Part shown: positions 58,583 through 61,066 of the stretch, piece after piece
How the letters are laid out: every line of letters begins with the position of its first letter
How positions within the stretch are numbered: position 1 is the stretch's first letter
From: Natronobacterium texcoconense
Lineage (GTDB): Archaea; Halobacteriota; Halobacteria; Halobacteriales; Natrialbaceae
NCBI RefSeq assembly: GCF_900104065.1
Contig: NZ_FNLC01000001.1
Coordinates: forward strand, 496,001-560,000
Direction: 5' to 3'
DNA length: 64,000 nucleotides
Notes under the pieces: model-generated
Database searches by the model: none
The model's input: only the letters and a program-made list of their open reading frames with translations
Told to the model about the DNA's origin: nothing
Translations under genes and position numbers: made by a program

Positions 58583-61066
58583 GTGGAACTGATTATTACG
58601 GAGAAGGACAACGCAGCCCGGCGGATCGCCGACATTTTGAGCGGCGGCACGTTCGACTCGAGCCGCGAGAACGGCGTCAACGTCTACGAGTGGGGCGGCA
58701 AGCGCTGCGTGGGGCTGTCGGGCCACGTCGTCGGTGTCGACTTCCCGTCGGAGTACTCGGACTGGCGGGACGTCGAACCCGTCGAGTTGATCGATGCAGA
58801 CGTCGAGAAGACCGCGACGAAAGAGAACATCGTCGCGACGCTACGGATCCTCTCGCGCAAGGCGAATACGGTCACGATCGCGACCGACTACGACCGCGAG
58901 GGCGAACTCATCGGCAAGGAGGCCTACGAGATCGTCCGCGACGTCAACGAGGAGGTCCCGATCCGGCGCGTCCGGTTCTCCTCTATTACGGAAAACGAGG
59001 TCCAGAACGCCTTCGACGAACCCGAAGACCTCGACTTCGACCTCGCAGCCGCGGGCGAAGCCCGACAGATCATCGACCTCGTCTGGGGGGCCGCACTGAC
59101 CCGGTTTCTCTCCCTCTCTGCGGGCCAGCTCGGGAACGACTTCATCTCCGTCGGCCGGGTCCAGTCGCCGACGCTGAAGTTGATCGTCGACCGCGAGCGC
59201 GAGATCCAGGCGTTCGATCCCGAGGACTACTGGGAGCTGTACGGCGATCTGACGAAAGACGAGACGACGTTCGAGGCCCAGTACTTCTACCGCGACGAGG
59301 ACGACAACGAGGCCGAACGCGTCTGGGAGGAATCGACCGCCGATGAGGTCTACGACACGCTCTCGAGTCGCGACAGCGCGACCGTCGTCGACGTCAACCG
59401 CCGGACCCGCACCGACGCGCCGCCGACGCCCTTCAACACGACCCAGTTCATCCGCGCGGCCGGCGCGCTCGGTTACTCCGCACAGCGGGCAATGTCGATC
59501 GCCGAGGACCTCTACACCGCCGGCTACATCACCTACCCGCGGACGGACAACACCGTCTACCCCGACGACCTCGAGCCCGACGAACTGCTCGACGAGTTCG
59601 TCGGCCACCCGACGCTCGGCGAGTCCGCCGAGGAGTTGCTCGAGGCCGACGAGATCGAGCCGACCCGCGGCGACGAGGAGACGACCGACCACCCGCCGAT
59701 CCACCCGACCGGCGAGATTCCCGCCCGCGGCGGCGACGTCAGCGACGACGAGTGGGAGATCTACGAACTCGTCGTCCGCCGGTTCTACGCGACGGTCGCC
59801 GAGGCCGCCGTCTGGGAACACCTCAAGGTCGTCGCCGAGGTCGACGACTACCGCCTGAAGGCAAACGGCAAACGGCTCGTCGAACCCGGCTACCACGACG
59901 TCTACCCGTACTTCAGCACCGCCGAAAACTACGTCCCCGACGTCGACGAAGGCGAAGAGCTGGGACTGACCGAAGTCGAACTCGAGGCAAAAGAGACCCA
60001 GCCACCCCGCAGGTACGGCCAGTCGCGGCTCATTGAAACCATGGAGGATCAGGGGCTTGGAACAAAAAGTACTCGACATAACACTTTGGAGAAATTATAC
60101 GATAGGGGATACATCGAGAGCGATCCGCCGCGCCCGACGAAACTCGCGATGGCGGTCGTCGACGCCGCCGAGAACTACGCCGACCGCGTCGTCAGCGAGG
60201 AGATGACGGCTCAACTCGAAGCGGACATGGACGCCATCGCTTCCGGCGAGGCGACGCTCGAGGACGTTACCGACGAGTCCCGCGAGATGCTGGAGGAGAT
60301 TTTCGCGAACCTCGCCGATTCGCGCGACGAGATCGGCGACCATCTGCGGAAGTCGCTCAAGGACGACAAGCGACTGGGGCCGTGTCCCGAGTGTGGCGAG
60401 GATCTGTTGGTCCGCAGCAGTCGCCACGGCTCCTATTTCGTCGGCTGTGACGGCTACCCTGACTGTGAGTTTACGCTGCCGCTGCCATCGACGGGCAAGC
60501 CGCTAATCCTCGATCAGGAGTGTGAGGACCACGAGCTGAACGAGGTCAAGATGCTCGCCGGCCGACAGACGTTCGTCCACGGCTGTCCGCTCTGCAAGTC
60601 CGAAGACGCGGGCGAGGGACCGATCCTGGGCGACTGTCCCGAGTGCGGCGAGGAACACGACGGCGAACTCGCTGTCAAGACTCTCCAGAGCGGCTCCCGA
60701 CTCGTCGGCTGTACGCGCTACCCCGACTGCGAGTACTCGCTGCCGCTGCCACGGCGCGGCGATATCGAAGTCACCGACGACCACTGTGAGGAACACGACC
60801 TTCCCGAACTCGTCATCCACAGCGGCGACGAGCCCTGGGAACTGGGCTGTCCGATCTGTAACTACCAGGAGTTCCAGGCTCGAGAGAGCGAGAGTGGATC
60901 CGACCTCGAGGCACTGGACGGTATCGGCGCGAAGACGGTCGAGAAACTCGCGGCTGCCGGTATCGAGGACATCGACGACCTGACCGACGCAGATCCGGAC
61001 GCGGTCGCCGAAGACGTCGAGGGCGTCTCTGCCGACCGCATCCGCAACTGGCAGGCAGAGGCCTGA
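58583..61066 (+). CDS. topA: DNA topoisomerase I (type IA)
   Basis: 827 residues, GTG start. TOPRIM domain (MELIITEKDNAARRIADIL; TDYDREGELIG near 101-111), catalytic tyrosine Y318 in AGYITYPRTDN, and GRVQSPTLKL are present. The C-terminus has several C4 zinc ribbons from about residue 600 and a helix-hairpin-helix tail (DGIGAKTVEKLAAAGIEDIDDL). It relaxes negative supercoils during replication and transcription. A segment at 60032-60114 (residues about 484-511, motif QGLGTKSTRHNTLEKLYDRG) uses AT-rich codons very unlike the rest of the gene. Confidence 0.96.
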   Translation: MELIITEKDNAARRIADILSGGTFDSSRENGVNVYEWGGKRCVGLSGHVVGVDFPSEYSDWRDVEPVELIDADVEKTATKENIVATLRILSRKANTVTIATDYDREGELIGKEAYEIVRDVNEEVPIRRVRFSSITENEVQNAFDEPEDLDFDLAAAGEARQIIDLVWGAALTRFLSLSAGQLGNDFISVGRVQSPTLKLIVDREREIQAFDPEDYWELYGDLTKDETTFEAQYFYRDEDDNEAERVWEESTADEVYDTLSSRDSATVVDVNRRTRTDAPPTPFNTTQFIRAAGALGYSAQRAMSIAEDLYTAGYITYPRTDNTVYPDDLEPDELLDEFVGHPTLGESAEELLEADEIEPTRGDEETTDHPPIHPTGEIPARGGDVSDDEWEIYELVVRRFYATVAEAAVWEHLKVVAEVDDYRLKANGKRLVEPGYHDVYPYFSTAENYVPDVDEGEELGLTEVELEAKETQPPRRYGQSRLIETMEDQGLGTKSTRHNTLEKLYDRGYIESDPPRPTKLAMAVVDAAENYADRVVSEEMTAQLEADMDAIASGEATLEDVTDESREMLEEIFANLADSRDEIGDHLRKSLKDDKRLGPCPECGEDLLVRSSRHGSYFVGCDGYPDCEFTLPLPSTGKPLILDQECEDHELNEVKMLAGRQTFVHGCPLCKSEDAGEGPILGDCPECGEEHDGELAVKTLQSGSRLVGCTRYPDCEYSLPLPRRGDIEVTDDHCEEHDLPELVIHSGDEPWELGCPICNYQEFQARESESGSDLEALDGIGAKTVEKLAAAGIEDIDDLTDADPDAVAEDVEGVSADRIRNWQAEA
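60032..60114 (+). other. AT-rich codon island inside topA
   Basis: About 83 bp that encode the conserved type IA motif region (ETMEDQGLGTKSTRHNTL...YDRGYIE) with codons such as AAA, AGT, ACT, CAT, TTG, TTA, GAT and AGG, whereas the flanking gene uses almost only G/C-ending codons. GC content drops from near 65% to roughly 40%. The reading frame is intact, so the change is in DNA, not protein. Confidence 0.75.

Follow-up and report, generated by a model that had tools for sequence, protein, structure and literature searches.

The topA gene of Natronobacterium texcoconense raises the question of why a block of A/T-ended codons should lie in a conserved motif of a gene whose genome favours G/C-ended codons. 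The window analysed here, a continuous stretch of 64,000 nucleotides, holds the gene on the forward strand at positions 58583 to 61066. Its open reading frame translates into an intein-free type IA DNA topoisomerase of 827 amino acids, with Pfam matches to Toprim (E = 1.2e-14), Topoisom_bac (6.5e-125), the C-terminal zinc ribbons of Zn_ribbon_Top1 (1.9e-20) and HHH_5. The GC content is 41% at 60030-60119 against about 65% in the surrounding DNA, and 59% of the 28 codons at 60032-60115 are A/T-ended compared with 18.5% overall in the 57 likely genes of the window. For A/T-ended share, this 28-codon segment ranks first among those genes; the following ranks lie mostly at ORF ends, and the topA island is the most A/T-ended gene-interior stretch of the whole window. 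Sliding-window scans located a core of 16 codons (60056-60103, forward strand) that is 75% A/T-ended and has an amino-acid-normalised z of 6.9, and codon-usage windows computed along topA place the bias beyond ordinary variation. The sequence-only reading that had pointed to the island was correct about its existence and about the motif, the equivalent of that of type IA topoisomerases, which is kept in the protein.

The middle of the island is the insertion point of an intein in related organisms. When the 125 genomes of the family were searched at the protein level, four TopA proteins proved to contain some 536 extra residues at the island's centre, and in the class as a whole a LAGLIDADG intein of 532 to 540 amino acids was present in TopA of 17 of 391 genomes, representing 14 genera. 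It starts with Cys and ends in HN ahead of Ser; the one representative scanned matched LAGLIDADG_3 above the cut-off (3e-16) and Intein_splicing under its cut-off (4e-6). In homologues L040-L043 and L120-L136 the insert falls precisely at K495|S496 (GTK|ST), and this identical boundary, between window bases 60067 and 60068 on the forward strand, is empty here; the link to inteins proposed in the sequence-only reading is therefore right. The TopA intein of haloarchaea has been catalogued (allele 'topA', PMC4071816) and resides in the same gene, relatives being occupied at the site that is recoded here, whereas the allele in the window is empty and our finding concerns the host target rather than the intein. 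Besides its endonuclease, the representative intein, L120, contains two further domains, a helix-turn-helix (160-196) and one of winged-helix-like type (417-466). At L351 (G000:C3:194000-197900) and G000:C3:79441-79848, the source genome, although intein-free in TopA, carries two inteins in DP2 and an MCM reading frame whose length (1408 aa) suggests inteins there too.

Compared with topA of the nearest relative, a member of the same genus with 95% protein identity, the tract from codon -12 to codon +14 around the intein site (60032-60109, forward strand) carries 18 synonymous and no non-synonymous differences. Synonymous change reaches 0.69 per codon in the tract and 0.21-0.22 elsewhere, an approximately 3-fold excess that is purely synonymous. 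Switches between six-fold codon boxes number five in the tract and five in the remaining 787 topA codons; in recoded topA tracts they run from TCN to AGY, CGN to AGA and CTN to TTA. The earlier description of A/T-ended codons "almost throughout" was slightly too strong, as codons -12 to -5 are changed in part only. Alignment showed the island to be missing from the genus relatives of the source genome. At the sequence level, the target is thus unlike the occupied sites although it encodes the same protein, the pattern expected of a homing-endonuclease-resistant allele. A deamination footprint of break repair was excluded, since transversions are as frequent as transitions in the tract (about 1:1). 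In relative G003, topA (L005/L006, G003:C1:4053243-4055704) gives two matches, residues 1-59 and 81-827, and seems broken near its N-terminus, which may be a sequencing error.

Recoding of this site recurs in many lineages. About 12 of 140 intein-free topA alleles have an AT-rich synonymous rewriting of their own over codons of about -1 to +13, and in recoded alleles of other genera changes over these 14 codons have about 2 to 13 times the density seen across the remainder of topA. The carriers come from no fewer than two families and from numerous genera; they belong to genera g1, g16, g17, g19, g21 and g28 of the source family and to other groups, among them the MAG QS_9_68_17 and Halocatena pleomorpha, and Natronolimnohabitans sp. 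A-GB9 has the allele of g21. At least 11 changes are needed for 12 recoded alleles on a topA tree built without the tract, and the close neighbours L088 and L090 have recoded tracts that differ from each other. Most haloarchaeal topA genes, compared with and without intein, do not have the AT-rich codons; neither outcome that the sequence-only reading had held to count against it, the same codons in all topA genes or a bias within ordinary variation, was found. Most of the tract is on the 3' side of the site, and it is one-sided in most recoded alleles; the 3' position speaks against endonuclease escape unless it is ascribed to an assumed footprint of the enzyme.

Tract codons of the source genome and of H. 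pleomorpha, which belongs to another lineage, agree at 10 of 13 positions versus 49% elsewhere. This agreement, together with short tracts at cut sites common to several genera, is what gene conversion might leave if an endonuclease break were repaired with a divergent intein-free homologue of AT-rich sequence as template, the patch then marking repair and any resistance being incidental. We regard such patches as an unlikely explanation, given that an AT-rich donor was not found among viral contigs and plasmids, that recoded tracts reach 81% A/T-ended in 16 codons, above the mean of any whole topA examined, and that ordinary GC-rich relatives would not yield such a bias as templates. A viral source of the tract was rejected because the viral contigs hold no TopA relative, and a plasmid source because the sole close plasmid TopA is just 57% identical.

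Within topA, the outlying windows gather at the intein site. Nine 16-codon windows in the 140 intein-free alleles reach an amino-acid-normalised z of at least 5, and every one of them lies there, as do 12 of 20 with z of at least 4 (p = 5e-12; this and the other enrichment p-values assume independent alleles and are optimistic). An amino-acid artefact was removed by the normalised scores, and a second hot spot near codons 670-695 in the raw data was mostly gone after normalisation, leaving single windows that reach z ≥ 4 but not z ≥ 5. Excess AT3 is limited to some 13 codons next to the site: at codons +1 to +13, intein-free alleles with Ser at +1 exceed both intein-bearing alleles (p = 1.1e-4) and alleles with Ala at +1 (p = 0.004), and no such difference between intein-free and intein-bearing alleles was seen at codons -26 to -13 or +14 to +26. 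Serine +1 is encoded by AGY in 27 of 120 intein-free versus 0 of 15 intein-bearing alleles (p = 0.028), and AGY makes up 28% of the other Ser codons of the intein-bearing alleles. For box switching, Arg+3 ranks first of 52 Arg columns and Leu+7 first of 67 Leu columns. Phylogenetically independent pairs went in the expected direction (4.6 to 0.3 and 5.4 to 0.4), their number being too small for significance.

An intein with Ala at the following +1 position cannot splice, and the Ala(+1) topA alleles show no rewriting. Rewriting is also missing from intein-bearing alleles: in all 15 that were compared, drawn from the 17 intein-carrying genomes of the class, the flanks are ordinary and GC-rich with a TCN serine at +1, and AT-rich flanks brought by present-day inteins were rejected for topA on these grounds. 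Taking these results together, we read the island, with moderate confidence, as an empty TopA homing site that was recoded synonymously and escapes, or is poorly recognised by, the LAGLIDADG homing endonuclease.

Enrichment at intein sites was likewise found in MCM, PolB and DP2. Windows with z ≥ 4 lay near intein sites in 8 of 12 cases for MCM (p = 5e-5) and 19 of 28 for PolB (p = 3e-15), the latter count rising when everything from site A to site C is included. The DP2 result had been predicted in advance, and all 14 outlier windows fell at residues 220-285 (506 examined), around two intein sites whose positions were taken from relatives that carry the inteins. The control regions, RadA and the N-terminal part of DP2, gave no windows at z ≥ 5; a conserved-motif effect was thereby dismissed, RadA showing none despite its P-loop. 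On inspection, AT-rich blocks such as GAAAAATTATAT look like archaeal BRE/TATA elements, as they might if a nucleotide-level function unrelated to inteins, for instance pausing of translation or a promoter within the gene, were kept in some lineages. Such a function is very improbable as the cause, for it leaves unexplained both the restriction to intein-free Ser topA alleles and the match to intein sites across four genes, on which the internal promoter offered in the sequence-only reading also fails, and the islands appear neither in close relatives nor in conserved motifs of RadA.

At the MCM-d site, recoding is stronger in splice-competent Ser(+1) alleles than in those with Pro or Ala (p = 0.015), and GAT occurs at -4 in 15 of 19 of the former versus 1 of 10 of the latter (p = 0.001). 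The continuous AT3 difference by intein status at MCM-a was not significant, with the expected direction and 23% versus 5% strongly recoded. The serine after the MCM-a insertion (L202-L251) is TCC in 16 of 20 intein-bearing alleles, and TCG in 16 of 30 intein-free and none of the 20 intein-bearing ones; co-conversion could be another cause of this difference. Strong AT-rich codon islands were also noted off the intein sites used, in MCM (EQQKISVSKAGI, L203 codon 414) and PolB (YVDKTDPDILTGWNFE, L186 codon 331), and may mark further intein sites.

PolB did not cleanly reproduce the difference by intein status. Flanking AT3 at site A does not distinguish A-bearing from A-free alleles, and of the three alleles with an intein at site C, two (L252 and L254) are AT-rich upstream of it. 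Codon sharing among PolB tracts across genera is 0.62 against 0.36 expected from independent recoding. Both the site-C flanks and the codon sharing, along with the position of tracts at insertion sites and the lower GC content of inteins relative to their host genomes, would suit the main rival explanation, a footprint of intein gain and loss in which the flank of an AT-rich donor was co-converted with the intein and stayed behind when the intein was lost. Against this account, an AT-rich flank is seen in none of the 15 intein-bearing topA alleles, PolB being ambiguous in this respect, precise intein loss would be required many times, L088 and L090 differ in their tracts despite close relationship, and most topA tracts are one-sided; we therefore doubt it. 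This footprint and an exon introduced from a lower-GC donor, two of the four origins that the sequence-only reading had offered, are less likely, in that every intein-bearing topA allele compared is GC-rich at its flanks and the search for an AT-rich donor among viral contigs and plasmids yielded none. Homing-endonuclease-resistant recoding fits best among the four.

Synonymous escape from the endonuclease would leave the GLGTKSTRH motif, essential to the topoisomerase, unchanged while its DNA target is rewritten. Single synonymous changes are reported to be easily tolerated by homing endonucleases, and non-synonymous ones not (PMC3024317), and in Haloferax the endonucleases of the PolB and MCM inteins show activity in vivo (PMC3024317; PMC10643990). 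Because the host gene must keep its protein and single synonymous changes are tolerated, escape would be possible only by many synonymous changes or by box switches. Changes at codon positions 1 and 2, which the TCN to AGY, CGN to AGA and CTN to TTA switches alter, would be preferred over wobble changes. AT-richness would then be a by-product of leaving the standard target, as departure from G/C-ended codons moves towards A/T-ended ones. An allele that has lost cleavage in this way would be favoured under selection by homing. Codon sharing in PolB above the level of independent recoding suggests that recombination probably spreads the blocks, and recoded blocks may in part have passed among genera by short-tract recombination, possibly triggered by the endonuclease's own breaks.

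Resistance at an empty intein site of a haloarchaeal replication gene has a precedent in mcm, where alleles with Pro after the MCM-d site resist invasion (PMC10643990). In both cases the +1 residue determines whether splicing is possible; in MCM-d, however, an amino-acid change blocks splicing and cutting is reported to go on, whereas in topA the protein is unchanged and many codons differ synonymously. That the MCM-d endonuclease is reported to cut Pro alleles too (PMC10643990) counts against the escape reading. Among the titles and passages found in the literature on inteins with synonymous resistance or flanking codon usage, a search that covered papers available without subscription, none deals with recoded homing sites.

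Synthetic homing gene drives meet synonymous resistance alleles. The putative topA alleles resemble these in being functional alleles with a recoded nuclease target, and differ in being natural, recurrent, up to about 26 codons long and directed against archaeal intein endonucleases. More tentatively, haloarchaea may recurrently have gained resistance to intein homing at many genome sites through synonymous rewriting of essential genes, especially by box switches, and through sharing of short tracts between genera. If true, natural synonymous resistance alleles would directly answer why intein-free and intein-bearing alleles coexist, a question in models of homing elements, and would parallel, in nature, the resistance alleles that stand in the way of synthetic gene drives. 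Such alleles would be readable from genomes, would provide a map of the bases read by each endonuclease, and would make codon islands usable to locate undiscovered intein sites.
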